Source of the DNA: Streptomyces sp. NBC_00775 | GTDB lineage: Bacteria; Actinomycetota; Actinomycetes; Streptomycetales; Streptomycetaceae | Reading direction: 5' to 3' | Assembly: GCF_036347135.1 (NCBI RefSeq) | Contig: NZ_CP108938.1 | Span: forward strand, 5,890,001 to 5,954,000 | DNA length: 64,000 nt | Shown here: one piece after another, positions 40,258 to 47,210 of the stretch | Layout of the letters: each line of letters opens with the position of its first letter | How positions within the stretch are numbered: position 1 is the stretch's first letter | The notes under the pieces: model-generated | Told to the model about the DNA's origin: nothing | Database searches by the model: none | What the model saw: the letters and a program-made list of their open reading frames with translations, nothing else | Made by a program: the position numbers and the translations under genes

Positions 40258-41538
40258 TCACGCCTGCGTACGTACCGATTTGTTCGCGCCGCCCGCCCTG
40301 GTCACGACGCGCGAGTTCCGCGTACGGCGATGTAGCCGCAGTGCGACGGCGGCCGCGCCGATGGCGAGGGTGGTCATGGCCGCGCCCGCCCACGCGGTGG
40401 AGGTGTAGCCGAACCCGGCGTCGATGACCGAGCCGCCGACCCAGGGCCCGCAGCTGTTGCCCAGGTTGAAGGCGGCCGTGGTCGTGGCCCCGGCCAGGGT
40501 GGGGGCGGCCGCGGCGACGTTGAACATCCGGGCGTTCAGCGCGGGGGCGGTGTAGAAGCAGGCGATCCCGAGGAGGAAGGAGAGCACCACGGCGGCGATC
40601 GCGTACTGCCCGAAGAGGGCGAGCCCGACGAGGATGACGGTGTCGGCCGCCATACCGCTGATCAGCACGCCGAAGAGATGCGCGTCGGCGAACCGCCCGC
40701 CGATCGTGGTCCCGATGAGCGCGCCGACCCCGAACAGCGCGAGCACGGCGGGCACCCACCCGTCGTCGAGCCCGGCGACATCCGTGAGCAGCGGCGCGAG
40801 ATAACTGAACGCGCAGAACACACCGGCGGCGCCGAGCATGATGACGCCGATGGACAGCCAGACCTCCCGGTCCCGGAAGATGCGCACCTCGCGCCTGAGC
40901 TGCGGCTTCTGGGCGGGGAGAGGGATGCGGGGGATGAGCGTGACCACCCCGAGGAGCGCGATCGCCGAGGCGGCGCCGACGGCCCAGAACGCCGACCGCC
41001 ACCCGAGCCCCTCCCCGAGAAAGGCCCCGGCGGGCACCCCGAGCACATTCGCGATCGACAGCCCCCCGATCATCACGGCCAGCGCCCGCGCCCGCGCGTT
41101 CCCCGGCACCATCGCGACGGCCACCGCCGCGCCGATCGCCCAGAACCCCGCGCAGGCGAGAGCACTGATGACACGCGACGCGAACAGGACGCCGTAGGTC
41201 GGGGCGAGGGCGCCCGCCACCTGGCCGAGCCCGAAGACGGTGATGAGGGCGACGAGGGTCGTACGGCGGGGGAGCCTGAGCGTCGCCACCGCGAGGAGGG
41301 GCGCCCCTACGACCATGCCGATCGCGAACGCCGAGATCAGCAGGCCGGCTTGGGGGATGGTGACGTCCATGTCCTCCGCGATGGGGGGCAGCAGCCCGGA
41401 GAGCATGAACTCGCTGGTGCCGAGGGCGAAGACGGAGAGGGCGAGTATGTAGACGGCGAGCGGCATGCGGGGGCGGGCGGTTGGGGTGGGGCCGGGGGTG
41501 GGGGTATCCGGGGGCGCGGATTGGGGAGTTGGGGCCAT
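40258..41538 (-). CDS. MFS transporter, Cmx/CmrA (chloramphenicol-export-like) type
   Basis: 426 residues, 12 hydrophobic segments. MPLAVYILALSVFALGTSEF is the signature of the CmlR/AraJ-like subgroup; GVPAGAFLGEGLGWRSAFW is motif C. AAGGGG sits 4 bases before the ATG. Upstream is the caspase/HSP90 gene (18 bases from its stop), downstream the MDMPI-GNAT gene, so all may share a transcript. Substrate unknown. Confidence 0.88.
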   Translation of the reverse strand: MAPTPQSAPPDTPTPGPTPTARPRMPLAVYILALSVFALGTSEFMLSGLLPPIAEDMDVTIPQAGLLISAFAIGMVVGAPLLAVATLRLPRRTTLVALITVFGLGQVAGALAPTYGVLFASRVISALACAGFWAIGAAVAVAMVPGNARARALAVMIGGLSIANVLGVPAGAFLGEGLGWRSAFWAVGAASAIALLGVVTLIPRIPLPAQKPQLRREVRIFRDREVWLSIGVIMLGAAGVFCAFSYLAPLLTDVAGLDDGWVPAVLALFGVGALIGTTIGGRFADAHLFGVLISGMAADTVILVGLALFGQYAIAAVVLSFLLGIACFYTAPALNARMFNVAAAAPTLAGATTTAAFNLGNSCGPWVGGSVIDAGFGYTSTAWAGAAMTTLAIGAAAVALRLHRRTRNSRVVTRAGGANKSVRTQA

Positions 41539-41556: not shown

Positions 41557-44500
41557 TCAGGGGTTGGCGTCGAACCAGTTTTCGGCTTCGTGGTGGAAGC
41601 CGAGCTCGGTGGCCTTGGCGGCCACCTCGCGGAAGGGGCGCCGCAGCATGAGGGCGGCGGAGGTGATCTCGGCGAGGGTGGCGTGGCGGCCCTGACCGGG
41701 GTGGGGGTCGAGGGAGTCGGGGGCTTGGAAGGCGCGGATGAGGAGTTGGTCGTGGGCGGGGTCTTCGGGGAAGTCTGCGGTGTAGCCGCTTGCCCGGTAG
41801 ACGTCCTTGAGGGTTTCGACGGAGCCGTTGGTGAGGGTGGCGGCGACGCGTAGGTAGGTCGGTGCGATGAGGGGGAGCTGGGTTGCCGAGGCTGTCCAGT
41901 CTGCGTCTGCGTCTGCGTTGGTTGGGATCGCTGCGGGCGCATGATGTACGGGGGATTGGTCGGTCTGGATGCCGAAGTCGGCGAGCGCTGTTTGGATCGG
42001 CTCTTGGTTCTCGGCCGCCATCCGGAAGGCCGTGACCGCGGAGACCGAGTCCCCGGTGTTGATCCGGCGGATTCTCAGACCCACGGCGGCCACAGCATGG
42101 TGTGCCGCTGTCAGCTCTGGGAGTTCTGTGAGGTCGGGCACGACGAAACCGAGCTCGGTCAGTCTCTTCGCCACGGTCTCGGGCCTGGACCGCATGCGTG
42201 CCGCCGTGAAGAGGAGTTGGCCACGGCTGACCCGATCGGTCTCTGCCGCCAGGGTCGACAGACCATCGGGGTGCTGCAGCAGGGCCTTGGCGATTCCCTG
42301 GTCCGGTTTGTTGGTCCCGCTCCGGCCGACGAGGTGATCGAAGGCGCGCGAGGGGAGTACGTACCCCAACTCCTTCAGGCGCCGGGCCGCTTCCAGCGGG
42401 TGATCTTGAGCGTAGAGATGGGCGAGGGGGATGCATGCCCCAGGAGGGAGGAGCTCTTCGGAAGAAGCGTGCCTGAGGCCGAGGAAGGAGGCAAGCGGAC
42501 TTCTGCCCAGAACCAAGAGGGGCAGATCGTCGGCCGAGGTTGTCGCCAGTGAGCCCAAGTCGGCCACGTTGTACCCCAGCTGGCTTAGCCGCTCGGCGAC
42601 TTGGCCGGGTGCGCGCCACAAGTGCGCGGCTGTGACAAGCAACTCCGCCCATGACACGGTGAACTGGGCCGGTCGCCATCGCGGGAGAGCGGTCAGCTGA
42701 TCCAGCTCACGTAGTTCATCGTCCCGCTGGGCGGACTGATCGCGTGAGGCGTCGCCGAGCTCGTGTGCTTCGGTGTACGACGCGGTGGCTTGTTGGAGAA
42801 CCTGTGCCCAGGTCCGTTGGCCTCCGAAGGAGAGCAACGGCAGATCCGATGGTCTTGCGGCCGGCAGGGAGTCTGCCGGCAGATCGGGGTGGAGGGCCCG
42901 CAGCCGCCAACGGAGGACCGGTTCCGGCATGCAGAGAATCATGAGGGCCGCGACGGTGTCATGGCTGCCCCTGGGCCACGGGAAAGAACCGGTGACGGTA
43001 GGCAGGAGCAGCAGATCCGGCGGAAAGAATCCGGTCCTGCCTACGTCGAGTGTCCAGTCGTAGCTCCTCCAAGAGATCTCTTTCTCTGCCGCACGGATGG
43101 CGATCGACTCAGCCAGTTCGGAGTCCTGCGCGTGCAGAACGTCCAGCCATGCAGGAGACAGAAGGCCTGGCGCGTCGATCAAGTCGTCGATGGCCGCAAC
43201 GCACTGGTCGTGCACCAACTGCTCGTCGTACCAGCTGAGCTTCTTGCGATCGACGGACAGTGTCGCCTGCTCCGCGCCGTGGAGGTCGACCACTCGTCCG
43301 AAGCGGGTGGTGTCGTTGGCGATTCCGTCCACCAGAAGGGCGCCGTTGCCGTCCGTCCACCACACGCCGTCCTGTTGGCAGGCCACCGCGGACGAGGGCC
43401 TCGACGGTCCCCCCGAAACTGAGTGGCGCCCGGCTTGGTGGTTCAATTCCCAGGCCCAGACGTACGGCGTGGACTTCCCGGACGGAAGGCGTGTACCGAG
43501 GTCGCGAGGATAAGCCGACGACGAGAACTCGCCGCCGGCCTTCGCCTCGACCACCAGCTTCTTCGCCTCCCACCGCCGCACCTCCTTTCCCACCGGCGCC
43601 CGCACCTCATAAGGCGAAACCCAAAGGTGCTTCCCCAACTCCTCGCCGCTGGACGGCATCGGTCGCTCCGGTGCCCCATGCAGCCGCACCTTGGTCCCCG
43701 CCTCCCGCCCGGGCCCCAAATCCTCGACCCGGAACAGGTTCCCGGGCCCGGCGATCGTCACCTTCAGCAGGCGGCCGGGGCGCCCCTCGCGGTCCAGGCG
43801 GCAGGTCAGCACGGACAGTTCATCGGCGATCATGAAGTAGCTGAGCACGCCGAGGCCGAAGCGGCTCACCGGTACCAGTTCGACCGGCGGGTCGAGGGAG
43901 GCCCATTGGGCGCCCTCCTCCAGGTATTCGGGCAGGTCCACGAAGCGGGAGCCGCCCTGGGCGAAGGCGCGGCTCAGTTCCGTGACGCCCATGCCGATGC
44001 CGTTGTCTGCGCATTCCAGGTAGGGCAGGCCGCGGTCGTCCGTCCCCTCGCTGAAGACGATCTCGCCCTTCCAGGGGAGGACTTGGACACCGGTGCGGCG
44101 GAGATACTCCGTGCGTGCCGTGCGGTACCGGAGCGCGTCCAGGGCGTTCTGGTACAGCTCGCGGATCGCCAACGCCCGGTCGCCGTAGAGCTGTTCGCCC
44201 ATCAGGAGTTCCTGGACGCGGTCGTCGGCGAGGCGGAAGCGGATGCCGCTGGAGAGCTCGGCGGGGGCCGCGCCGCTCGGGCGTACCTGCTGGCCGTCGG
44301 CGTAGGCGGGGAGGGACGCGAGGGGAGCCAGCGAGCTGCCCCGCTTCGCCGCCTCCTTGTTGATGTCGCGCAGGAGTACGTCCACCGTCTCGCCGTGCCG
44401 CTTGAGAGCCAGCTCGATGGCGGGGTGTCCGCACAGTGCGTTGAGGGACCGGCCGGCGCCCGCGGGCACCCAGTGCGACTGGCGCAGGGTGGCCCGCAGG

Positions 44501-46089
44501 TCCTCCATCGAGACACTGTCGGAGATGCCGAGGTGCTCGACGAGGACCTCGGGGAGGTCGGCCGGGTCGATGGCGAGTGCGTGTGCGGCCTTGAGCAGGG
44601 CGGAGACCAGCCGCTCCCGGACCGTGTGTTCGTGCGAGGTGCTGGGCGCGACCTCGCGTTCCTCCTGGAGCGCGGTGCTGCGGGTGCTGCCGGGGATGGC
44701 GGAGGGGGCGACCCGCTGTTCCTTGAGGTAGGACAGCAGCCGGGTGGCGGACAGCTCCGAGCGGACCCAGGCGGGTGCCGCGGCCGGGATCTCCAGGGAG
44801 TCGCAGGTGAGGAACCTGGGGGTGAATGCTTCCGGCTGCCGGACCAGCCAGCGGTGGAATCCCCACCAGCGGATGTCGGAGAGGGCCTGTGAGGGCTTCT
44901 GCTCCAGGGTGCGCAGTCGGCGGCCCAGACGGGGGAACGACTTGAGGAAGTCGTTCAGTTCGGTGTCCGGCAGTTCCCGACGGGCCGCCTGTTGCGCCCA
45001 GTGGGCCTGGGTCGCGAAGGGCAGTACGGCCAGCAGCGCGGCCTCGGTCGGCGAGAGCTCGGTCTCCTCGGGAAGGCGGAGCAGCAGGAAGCCGACCCGC
45101 TCCGTGGTGCGGTCGGCCAGCTCCCTGTCGTACCAGGGGTCGTCGGCGATCTTGGGCTCGGCGGCGGCGCAGGCACGGCCGTACCGTCCCGCGAGCAGAC
45201 CGCAGACCTCTTTGAGCGAGTCGACGCTCGCGGCCCGGGCCGGGGAGGTGAGCTTCCAGGCCGGATGGGCCATGACCGTCTCGGCCCAGGTCCGCTCGGC
45301 ACCGCTGAGGCCCGTGGTCGTTTCGGCCGGAGGGAAGACCGTGAAGTCGTCGTGGTCGTCCTCGGTGAGCACGCGGACGTGCTGCGGTACGCCCGGTTTC
45401 CCGTACGCCTTGTGCAGGGCGTCGATGCGCTCCTGGGCGGCCGGCTTGAACTCGCGCAGTGTGCTCACCGGGCCGGCCAGTAGATCGGTGACCGTCCGGG
45501 AGAAGAGGCTGAAGGTGTCCGCAGGCTTCGTGCCCACGTCATGGCCGGCCCGGACGGTGTCCGTGTCCCGGACGTAGCGGGCCACCTCCGCCTGTGAGCA
45601 GGCGTAGACGTAGGCGGCCTTGCGCCGCAGCGCGGCGGCGACCTTGCGGATCGACCAGGCCGACGTGCTCATCGTGTCGTTGCGGATGCCTTCGCGGCAG
45701 GCGTCGATCAGGAAGACCACCTGGCTCGCGCGGGTGCTTTCCAGTTCGTCACGCCAGTCGATCTCGACGCATCCGCCGGTGAAAGGGGACAGCTCCGGGC
45801 GGATGTCCTCGGGGACGAGGTAGTCCCTGCCCTCGGAGTGCACGCCGTGGCCGCTCATGACGACGAGCAGTCGGTCGCCGGGTTCGGCCGAGGCCAGGAA
45901 ACCCGTCACCTCGCCATTGATCACGTTGGGTGTGAACCATTGAGCCTGGGCCAGGTGCACCTGGTGGAAACCCCGCGCCGACAGAGCGGTCGCCATCCGG
46001 TCCAGGTCGTCGTGGACGAAGGGCAGCGGGCTGATTCCCGGAGCTTCGTACTGGGCGACCCCGATGAGCAGAGCCTTGTAACGAGCCAA
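41557..46089 (-). CDS. caspase-like protease - HD-like - HSP90-type ATPase - winged-helix repeat protein
   Basis: 1510 residues, TTG start 13 bases after the partner gene. Residues 1-250: caspase-like domain with His81 (VVMSGHGVH) and Cys131 (FLIDACREG). About 260-420: HD-like helical region without an HD pair (LSPTEAALLAVLPFATQAHW). About 615-960: GHKL ATPase with N-box IRELYQNALDAL (E644, N648), CADNGIGMG (695-700) and FGLGVLSYFM. About 1140-1510: at least six repeats of 60-72 residues ending in LG(Y/F)-type motifs. The fusion resembles computationally predicted conflict systems of multicellular bacteria, where ATPase sensing gates a death protease. No membrane segment. Function is inferred. 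Confidence 0.88.
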   Translation of the reverse strand: MARYKALLIGVAQYEAPGISPLPFVHDDLDRMATALSARGFHQVHLAQAQWFTPNVINGEVTGFLASAEPGDRLLVVMSGHGVHSEGRDYLVPEDIRPELSPFTGGCVEIDWRDELESTRASQVVFLIDACREGIRNDTMSTSAWSIRKVAAALRRKAAYVYACSQAEVARYVRDTDTVRAGHDVGTKPADTFSLFSRTVTDLLAGPVSTLREFKPAAQERIDALHKAYGKPGVPQHVRVLTEDDHDDFTVFPPAETTTGLSGAERTWAETVMAHPAWKLTSPARAASVDSLKEVCGLLAGRYGRACAAAEPKIADDPWYDRELADRTTERVGFLLLRLPEETELSPTEAALLAVLPFATQAHWAQQAARRELPDTELNDFLKSFPRLGRRLRTLEQKPSQALSDIRWWGFHRWLVRQPEAFTPRFLTCDSLEIPAAAPAWVRSELSATRLLSYLKEQRVAPSAIPGSTRSTALQEEREVAPSTSHEHTVRERLVSALLKAAHALAIDPADLPEVLVEHLGISDSVSMEDLRATLRQSHWVPAGAGRSLNALCGHPAIELALKRHGETVDVLLRDINKEAAKRGSSLAPLASLPAYADGQQVRPSGAAPAELSSGIRFRLADDRVQELLMGEQLYGDRALAIRELYQNALDALRYRTARTEYLRRTGVQVLPWKGEIVFSEGTDDRGLPYLECADNGIGMGVTELSRAFAQGGSRFVDLPEYLEEGAQWASLDPPVELVPVSRFGLGVLSYFMIADELSVLTCRLDREGRPGRLLKVTIAGPGNLFRVEDLGPGREAGTKVRLHGAPERPMPSSGEELGKHLWVSPYEVRAPVGKEVRRWEAKKLVVEAKAGGEFSSSAYPRDLGTRLPSGKSTPYVWAWELNHQAGRHSVSGGPSRPSSAVACQQDGVWWTDGNGALLVDGIANDTTRFGRVVDLHGAEQATLSVDRKKLSWYDEQLVHDQCVAAIDDLIDAPGLLSPAWLDVLHAQDSELAESIAIRAAEKEISWRSYDWTLDVGRTGFFPPDLLLLPTVTGSFPWPRGSHDTVAALMILCMPEPVLRWRLRALHPDLPADSLPAARPSDLPLLSFGGQRTWAQVLQQATASYTEAHELGDASRDQSAQRDDELRELDQLTALPRWRPAQFTVSWAELLVTAAHLWRAPGQVAERLSQLGYNVADLGSLATTSADDLPLLVLGRSPLASFLGLRHASSEELLPPGACIPLAHLYAQDHPLEAARRLKELGYVLPSRAFDHLVGRSGTNKPDQGIAKALLQHPDGLSTLAAETDRVSRGQLLFTAARMRSRPETVAKRLTELGFVVPDLTELPELTAAHHAVAAVGLRIRRINTGDSVSAVTAFRMAAENQEPIQTALADFGIQTDQSPVHHAPAAIPTNADADADWTASATQLPLIAPTYLRVAATLTNGSVETLKDVYRASGYTADFPEDPAHDQLLIRAFQAPDSLDPHPGQGRHATLAEITSAALMLRRPFREVAAKATELGFHHEAENWFDANP

Positions 46090-46102
46090 CGCGGCACCGC
46101 TC

Positions 46103-46462
46103 TCAGGACGGTCGCTTGAAGACGAGCGTCAGCCCGCGGGTGCCCTGTACCTGGCCCGTCCCGATGAGCTGGATGCCGCCGCTCGCGGTGACCTGGAAGG
46201 AGAGCTGGGCCTCGGCGAGCGGGAGGGTGCCGCCGCGGGCCGAGGCGTCGGCGAAGAGCTGCTGGAGGGCGTCGACGGTCGCCGCGAGGTTCTTGCGCAG
46301 CGGGCCCAGCGGAACCGAGCGCAGAACGGCTTCGCTGTCGCGGCCGAACAGCCCCATCGAGTCCGACCCGCCCGTCCCGTCGTCACCGTCCTCCGTGACG
46401 CTGACCCAGAACGGCAGAGTCTGCTCCGAGAGTTCGTTCGGCTGGTCCGTCCCCTGGTCCAT
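46103..46462 (-). CDS. small peptidase-co-occurring (Pepco/trypco-like) domain protein
   Basis: 119 residues. Core 50-119: VPLGPLRKNLAATVDALQQL, then LPLAEAQLSFQVTASGGIQL, then IGTGQVQGTRGLTLVFKRP. The pattern of a helix followed by a beta strand set ending GLT.VFKR matches my recollection of the Pepco family, found beside caspase and trypsin genes in bacterial conflict loci; trypco2 is the alternative. It precedes the caspase-HSP90 gene by 13 bases and is almost certainly its partner. GGAAGGA site before the ATG. Confidence 0.7.
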   Translation of the reverse strand: MDQGTDQPNELSEQTLPFWVSVTEDGDDGTGGSDSMGLFGRDSEAVLRSVPLGPLRKNLAATVDALQQLFADASARGGTLPLAEAQLSFQVTASGGIQLIGTGQVQGTRGLTLVFKRPS

Positions 46463-46565: not shown

Positions 46566-47210
46566 TCAGCTGGTGAGCAATTCCAGCTCGGAGCCGATGT
46601 TGTACCGCGCGGTCGCCTCCCACTCCGCCGCCCCGTGCGGCGTGTGGAACAGGCGGGGCAGGTCGAGGAGTTGGCGCAGGATCGCGGCGCGGCCCTCGCG
46701 GAAGGCGTCGTTCGGGACGAAGGCGTACTCCTGGCGGACGGCGGCGGTGTAGGCGGCGTACGCGTTCGGGGACGAGGCCAGGATCGCCAGGTCGGCGTCG
46801 CACAGGACCTGGCCGTTGCGGTCGCCGTCGGACGGGTCGTGGGTGACGGTGAGGCGGACCAGGCGGGCGACTTCCTCGGTCCTCTCCTCGGACACCCCGG
46901 CCTCGGGGAGCGCGCGCTCGGCGAGGCGGGCGGACCGCTCCTCGTTCTCGGAGCGGTCGGGGAAGTACACGGCGTCGTGGAACCAGGCGGCCAGCCGCAC
47001 CAGGTCCGGGTCGTCCGCGTGCTTCTCCAGTACGTCGATGTGGTCGAGGACCGCCTTGAGGTGCGTGACGGTGTGGTAGTGGCGCTGCGCCTCCTGCCAG
47101 CGGGTGAGGAGGTTGTCGGCGTAGGGGACCGGGTCCGGGCCGCCGCCGGGCGCCCGGGCTTCTTCCAGGGCGCGGGTCCAGCGGGTGCGCAGGGCATCGA
47201 GATCGACCAT
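46566..47210 (-). CDS. HD-domain metal-dependent hydrolase
   Basis: 214 residues. HYHTVTHL near residue 45 and WFHDAVYFPDRSENEE near residue 77 give the HD-superfamily metal ligands; CDADLAILASSP near 133 adds the later Asp. Predicted nucleotide or phosphate-ester hydrolase. It lies 103 bases upstream of the Pepco gene on the same strand, but with its own start, so a functional tie to the caspase system is not implied. Confidence 0.85.
   Translation of the reverse strand: MVDLDALRTRWTRALEEARAPGGGPDPVPYADNLLTRWQEAQRHYHTVTHLKAVLDHIDVLEKHADDPDLVRLAAWFHDAVYFPDRSENEERSARLAERALPEAGVSEERTEEVARLVRLTVTHDPSDGDRNGQVLCDADLAILASSPNAYAAYTAAVRQEYAFVPNDAFREGRAAILRQLLDLPRLFHTPHGAAEWEATARYNIGSELELLTS

Follow-up and report, generated by a model that had tools for sequence, protein, structure and literature searches.

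The nearest described relative of the locus reported here is the EACC1-caspase pair. In the available part of its description (Kaur et al. 2020, PMC7159879), this system is prevalent in actinobacteria and combines a small 5′ gene, EACC1, whose product has a transmembrane helix, with a 3′ gene encoding an N-terminal caspase and a variable C-terminal part. Set against that text, our locus follows the same logic, a small 5′ gene preceding a 3′ gene with an N-terminal caspase and a variable C-terminal part, but lacks the defining 5′ gene: the protein encoded there is Pepco, with no EACC1 match in Pfam and no transmembrane helix by hydropathy (best 19-residue mean 0.83). Sister loci join both systems. 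Phage defence offers two further comparisons. VcSduA (GHKL-Shedu), a GHKL ATPase-nuclease, protects from phage according to the accessible sections of PMC12137116. Those of PMC12799240 describe canu as a phage defence built on a caspase-activated nuclease, name canu, Hachiman and AVAST pairs in which a co-encoded nuclease is activated by proteolysis, and report CRISPR, gasdermin, NLR and Thoeris/TIR systems as the partners of defence-linked bacterial caspases. As far as these sections go, the effector is a nuclease both in the GHKL-controlled VcSduA and in the caspase-driven canu, whereas neither gene of our operon matches a nuclease family in Pfam. By analogy, both halves of a GHKL-gated, caspase-driven device occur in phage defence.

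The first-pass annotation had stated that no experimental description of this exact architecture was known. Within the openly accessible literature, which leaves most subscription journals outside, this was borne out: we recognised no paper describing the architecture, nor one with its Pfam names or accessions. The domain families are named in Pfam, where the window's two proteins are covered by iHD-CE (PF24401), wHTH-HSP90_Na-assoc (PF24410) and Pepco (PF24393), all above cut-offs, and relatives are many, so that the architecture is already familiar to databases. What appears new from the sequence comparison is that Pepco tracks an intact paracaspase on the iHD-Hsp90 core (a trend that is not significant after tree correction), that it also precedes caspases outside this core, that the core carries other effectors, and that the operon occupies a recurrent, often empty Streptomyces site. 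The window is the whole stretch of 64,000 nucleotides that was analysed, and the features discussed below are as follows.

41557..46089, minus strand: main gene, paracaspase - iHD-CE - Hsp90-type ATPase - wHTH repeats, 1510 amino acids, TTG start (ORF; Pfam/NCBIfam)
46103..46462, minus strand: Pepco gene, first in the operon, 119 amino acids, ATG start (PF24393, 66.3 bits, cut-off 27)
45325..46089, minus strand: peptidase domain of paracaspase type, spanning residues 1-255, with the dyad H81/C131 and D129 ahead of the Cys
44275..45288, minus strand: inactive HD domain (iHD-CE), residues 268-605 (PF24401, 295.7 bits)
43054..44229, minus strand: Hsp90-type ATPase region, residues 621-1012; N-terminal ATPase domain at about 621-808, the remainder a suggested middle-domain part (structure match)
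41596..42696, minus strand: C-terminal wHTH-type repeat array, residues 1132-1498, four units (iterated repeat HMM; PF24410 in two stretches)
46566-47210: HD-type hydrolase gene, upstream neighbour (identity judged from the sequence letters; no NCBIfam family match)
40258-41538: MFS gene (Cmx/CmrA chloramphenicol-efflux model, 501.6 bits, cut-off 400; NCBIfam)

Domain architecture of the operon

Both open reading frames lie where the first-pass annotation had placed them, with the coupled 119-residue gene upstream, and the anatomy it had read from the letters (caspase, HD-like, Hsp90/GHKL, winged helix, Pepco) proved correct in Pfam, in alignments and in the structure model. The caspase and GHKL folds, whose recovery had been set beforehand as a test, were both found in an AlphaFold2 model of residues 1-1200 and its structure matches. 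No membrane helix is evident in the main chain, and Pepco is encoded by a closely spaced upstream gene: the two genes are 13 nt apart, and of the 32 loci in which an 'LLIG'-type motif was recognised close to the N-terminus of the caspase, 29 have it 21-50 nt after the Pepco stop codon. Neighbouring frames within about 5 kb of 80 loci were clustered and the 40 largest clusters compared; in this coarse procedure (stop-to-stop frames, shadow frames), which would miss a rare or distant effector, Pepco was the sole partner spanning divergent lineages. A third operon gene or a nuclease was sought in this way and rejected; several other clusters were lineage-bound or mixed with main-gene frames.

The N-terminal part of the main protein matches Peptidase_C14 at residues 5-191 (Pfam) and shows the fold and His/Cys dyad of clan CD caspases and paracaspases. 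H81 and C131 stand at the numbers predicted for the dyad and, with D129, are invariant in 31 of 31 rows with letters there (32-row alignment). PADLOC returned only a generic caspase match for the main gene, and the EACC1-associated caspase type was not reached in NCBIfam (NF047832, 55.7 bits, cut-off 140). The Asp-x-Cys of the peptidase is common to MALT1 and metacaspases, which cut after Arg or Lys. Whereas MALT1-type paracaspases carry an Ig-like domain after the caspase, residues 264-600 were here modelled as mainly helical and match iHD-CE. In this second region, which had been called HD-like, HD-CE (residues 320-574) overlaps iHD-CE (268-605, cut-off 27; Pfam), and the HD dipeptide is absent between residues 268 and 605, in agreement with the Pfam name iHD-CE.

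The GHKL ATPase announced for the middle of the chain can be refined to the Hsp90 type (hhalign to HtpG, E 6.8e-15). E644, N648 and D695-G699 are found at the expected numbers, as are G745 and G747, so that the catalytic Glu, the Asn, DxGxG and the glycine motif of an Hsp90 N-terminal Bergerat ATPase are all present. None of E644, N648, D695, N696, G697, G699, G745 or G747 varies, either among 32 or among 55 aligned sequences, and the invariance of ATPase and dyad residues in the aligned sequences is far above chance. Pfam gave no ATPase match in the main protein, and the NCBIfam HtpG model matched residues 629-804 below its cut-off (33 bits, E 2.3e-8); the region resembles Hsp90, TRAP1 and HtpG in motifs and fold, and residues 621-1012 align to TRAP1 94-442 in the structure match. 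R948, in LSVDR, a candidate for the catalytic Arg of an Hsp90 middle domain, is invariant in 55 sequences. Taken alone, the post-ATPase segment gave E 0.19 against the Hsp90 middle domain (hhalign), in a register differing from that of the structure match, and homology to that domain did not emerge from sequence. The N-terminal ATPase motifs and fold are those of HtpG and TRAP1, but the ATPase is here embedded between the iHD domain and the wHTH repeats. No STAND NTPase (NACHT, NB-ARC) was matched in the main protein by Pfam at E up to 1; STAND/NLR proteins use a STAND NTPase, whereas a GHKL ATPase takes that position here. The C-terminal repeat array predicted from the letters is real but degenerate in this copy. 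Pfam wHTH-HSP90_Na-assoc (PF24410) matches in two stretches (34.3 bits, cut-off 23), and the iterated repeat HMM detected four units (1132-1173, 1209-1243, 1283-1315 and 1466-1498). Relatives carry 0 to 14 units, with 11-14 in the Frankia group.

Relatives and the association of Pepco with the caspase

At least 130 relatives of the main protein were found at E 0.001 among 7985 candidates, and 234 genome stretches encode a relative, the best 80 of which were kept with their flanks. These best 80 loci belong to Streptomyces, Kitasatospora, Micromonospora, Frankia, Lentzea, Dactylosporangium and other actinomycetes, and also include four cyanobacteria, a Thiodictyon and a Pyrinomonadaceae MAG; database names of relatives are 'caspase family protein', 'HD domain-containing protein' and 'Pepco domain-containing protein'. 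A caspase match lies in the main frame at 57 of the 80 loci, with both dyad residues in 50 and lost in 7. Among 200 Streptomycetaceae genomes, iHD-CE was found in 36 and Pepco in 20. The window's own genome holds a second caspase-iHD-Hsp90-wHTH gene (L115:4122-9269, a 1716-aa frame), and no Pepco match lies within its 13 kb stretch.

The association was counted over 81 rows with the iHD-Hsp90 core, namely 79 loci, the window and its paralogue L115; L103, whose contig starts inside the gene, was dropped. Six intact caspases of the DCCFSG type (EACC1-associated; L079, L083, L088, L091, L097 and L101) were scored as not paracaspase-type, a decision taken after their motif and neighbours had been seen and, for L097, by motif alone. 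L115 received the same score without inspection of its dyad, and L037, L052 and L065, with frames shifted or split, were scored as caspase plus Pepco from separate pieces. With this scoring, 41 rows have an intact paracaspase and Pepco, 33 have neither, 6 the caspase only and 1 Pepco only, so that of the 47 core rows whose paracaspase-type peptidase is intact, 41 have Pepco upstream. Mapped on the core tree, the changes are few but point the same way, at most 4 versus 0, and a tree-corrected sign test over independent pairs was not significant (median p 0.25, range 0.125-1). The Pepco-paracaspase link on the core is strong in counts but, after tree correction, no more than suggestive. Pepco is held elsewhere in 3 of the 6 genomes of the peptidase-only rows, compared with 0 of 3 control genomes with a dead or missing caspase; the searched genomes of L067, L104 and L109, where the caspase is present, gave no Pepco match. 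A cyanobacterial locus (L107:6573-9349) combines Pepco with iHD-Hsp90 in the absence of a main-frame caspase and is the single exception of its kind.

Pepco is also paired with caspases outside the Hsp90 core (L117, L119, L120, L122). In the 200 Streptomycetaceae genomes, 14 of 20 Pepco genes directly precede a caspase match, one of the 14 (G135) being a truncated caspase gene; the other six are L125 beside a CHAT protease gene, L126 before a decayed caspase gene, and four unassigned. The same genomes contain 21 caspase matches of at least 100 bits, 12 with Pepco directly before them and 9 without. The nine caspases without an adjacent Pepco include L116, L118, L130, L131 and the second such caspase of the window's genome (L114; G000:C1:3844991); two of them are fragmentary, covering query 106-252. 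Judged by these gene neighbourhoods, Pepco depends on the caspase more than the caspase on Pepco, and its likely partner is the peptidase, not the sensor. At L125:4032-5721 the neighbour of Pepco encodes a CHAT protease domain, which raises the possibility that Pepco serves the caspase superfamily more widely.

Pepco has 186 homologues at E ≤ 0.001. Its Arg48 is conserved in 93% of 44 sequences, and its 119 residues match no other Pfam family above cut-off. The structure model is poor (pLDDT 68.5), which leaves a lock and a substrate indistinguishable. Identification of Pepco as Trypco1 was tried and rejected: the window's protein had no match at E up to 5 in a profile search, 4 of 9 relatives scanned matched below cut-off only (best E 0.0014), and hhalign gave P 0.005 over 38 columns with a probability of 7%. 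The similarity between the two families is at most suggestive.

Exchangeable effectors and the chromosomal site

The core is combined with effectors other than the paracaspase. Where the Hsp90 core bears an EACC1-type caspase, all five of the upstream genes tested encode EACC1, so that the core shares effectors with a predicted conflict system (PMC7159879, from the available part of its text). Seven copies of the Frankia group (L064, L066, L069, L070, L071, L075, L076) carry an N-terminal TIR (7/7) and a dead caspase dyad, and Pepco accompanies none of them (0/7). Away from the core, Pepco is followed at L127:4415-7677 by a single gene in which caspase and Hsp70 are fused, so that a chaperone and a caspase are combined beside Pepco for a second time, and at L119:4957-7725 by an open frame with caspase and DnaG primase domains, either a fusion or an insertion before a housekeeping dnaG. 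At L120, L121 and L122 a paracaspase-type caspase is joined to modules of some 1250 aa that are related to one another and have no Pfam name; L114, which belongs to the window's genome, has this module in part only.

The operon lies between the HD-type hydrolase and MFS genes, which are separated by 5030 bp in the window. In 23 of 37 other genomes of the genus (those with the best MFS match, out of 60), the two genes are less than 300 bp apart on one strand. The HD-type gene is near 17 of the 80 loci (16 titled Streptomyces and one 'Actinobacteria bacterium'), all with Pepco and a paracaspase. At L126:5278-6093 Pepco stands beside short caspase-gene remnants with the HD-type gene and an RpiR gene nearby, and at L123:6354-8154 beside similar remnants with an RpiR gene nearby; both look like decayed copies of the operon at or near the window's site. 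Judged by these loci, the operon seems to be a long-standing resident of Streptomyces that has frequently been lost, and not a recent insertion in the window. No match was found in 50,697 phage records, and plasmids gave four partial matches, none covering 80% of the query. NCBIfam showed no sign of a defence island among eight neighbouring ORFs, five of which match metabolic, transport or regulatory families and three match nothing.

A putative conflict switch and its alternatives

We tentatively propose, at slightly under even confidence, that the two genes form a conflict switch, for immunity or programmed death, in which an Hsp90 clamp replaces the STAND ATPase and Pepco restrains the caspase or is cut by it. 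The chain would then be ordered as effector, damper, ATP switch and sensor array, as in NLR-type proteins. As long as the cell rests, the peptidase would be kept idle by the iHD domain together with the Hsp90 clamp. The C-terminal repeat array, proposed as the trigger binder and the part that varies most in copy number, might bind a phage product, a damaged protein or a nucleic acid. Driven by ATP, the clamp would close or pair and so unite peptidases, as caspases need, and the active enzyme would cut host or phage proteins after Arg or Lys, leading to cell death or arrest; this cleavage is expected because the peptidase has the Asp-x-Cys of MALT1 and metacaspases, the specificity of which is taken from general knowledge. 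Pepco would most probably act as a safety lock (inhibitor or pseudosubstrate) or as the first substrate, with Arg48 as the residue at which an Arg-specific peptidase might cut or dock. A role in immunity or death switching would fit with effectors that are swapped (EACC1-caspase, TIR) and with the patchy distribution of the system.

The recurrence of the site in Streptomyces suits vertical inheritance and counts against a conflict switch, as do the nine of 21 strong caspase matches that have no adjacent Pepco, the few independent changes behind the Pepco-caspase link, the lack of a defence-island sign among the eight neighbouring ORFs, and the near absence of phage and plasmid matches. A rival reading is a protease for development or stress quality control, in which Hsp90 would sense unfolded proteins and the caspase would execute programmed mycelial lysis or remodelling during Streptomyces differentiation, with no role in defence. 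The 17 of 80 loci near the HD-type gene, all with Pepco and a paracaspase, agree with such a function, as do the lack of phage matches, the four partial plasmid matches and the large number of relatives from genera with filamentous or aggregating growth. However, only 36 of 200 family genomes contain iHD-CE and only 20 contain Pepco, remnants of the operon lie at or near its own site (L126, L123), and the effector is swapped for TIR or an EACC1-caspase, so that we regard a developmental protease as unlikely. A DNA-sensing system seems equally improbable to us: the Hsp90 part would be a nucleic-acid clamp of the MORC/MutL kind, the wHTH array would bind DNA, and invading DNA rather than proteins would be sensed. 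The repeats are of winged-helix type by their Pfam name (PF24410) and several GHKL proteins are DNA clamps, but winged helices can bind proteins too, and the ATPase matches Hsp90, TRAP1 and HtpG, which are protein-chaperone clamps.

The part played by Pepco may also differ from that of an inhibitor. Activation of Pepco by the caspase, as a pro-effector, would follow the precedent of proteolytic activation given for canu, Hachiman and AVAST in the accessible sections of PMC12799240; on the core, Pepco is kept with intact peptidases and missing from dead ones, and the 93% conservation of Arg48 is in line with this. We nevertheless consider a pro-effector somewhat unlikely, since Pepco is only 119 aa long, has no membrane helix by hydropathy and belongs to no other Pfam family, and since its presence beside truncated caspase genes (L126, L123) suggests that free Pepco is tolerated.

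The proposed conflict switch may belong to a wider class of NLR analogues, a more doubtful extension, in which a chaperone clamp (Hsp90, or Hsp70 in one relative) would replace the STAND ATPase between a repeat sensor and exchangeable death effectors, be it the paracaspase-Pepco pair, the EACC1-caspase or TIR, client binding being the danger signal. A MALT1-like caspase and an Hsp90-type ATPase in one chain would make gating of a death protease by a chaperone cycle testable with two point mutants. The comparison also gives Pepco a likely job, turning an unexplained Pfam family into the question of whether it is an inhibitor or a substrate.
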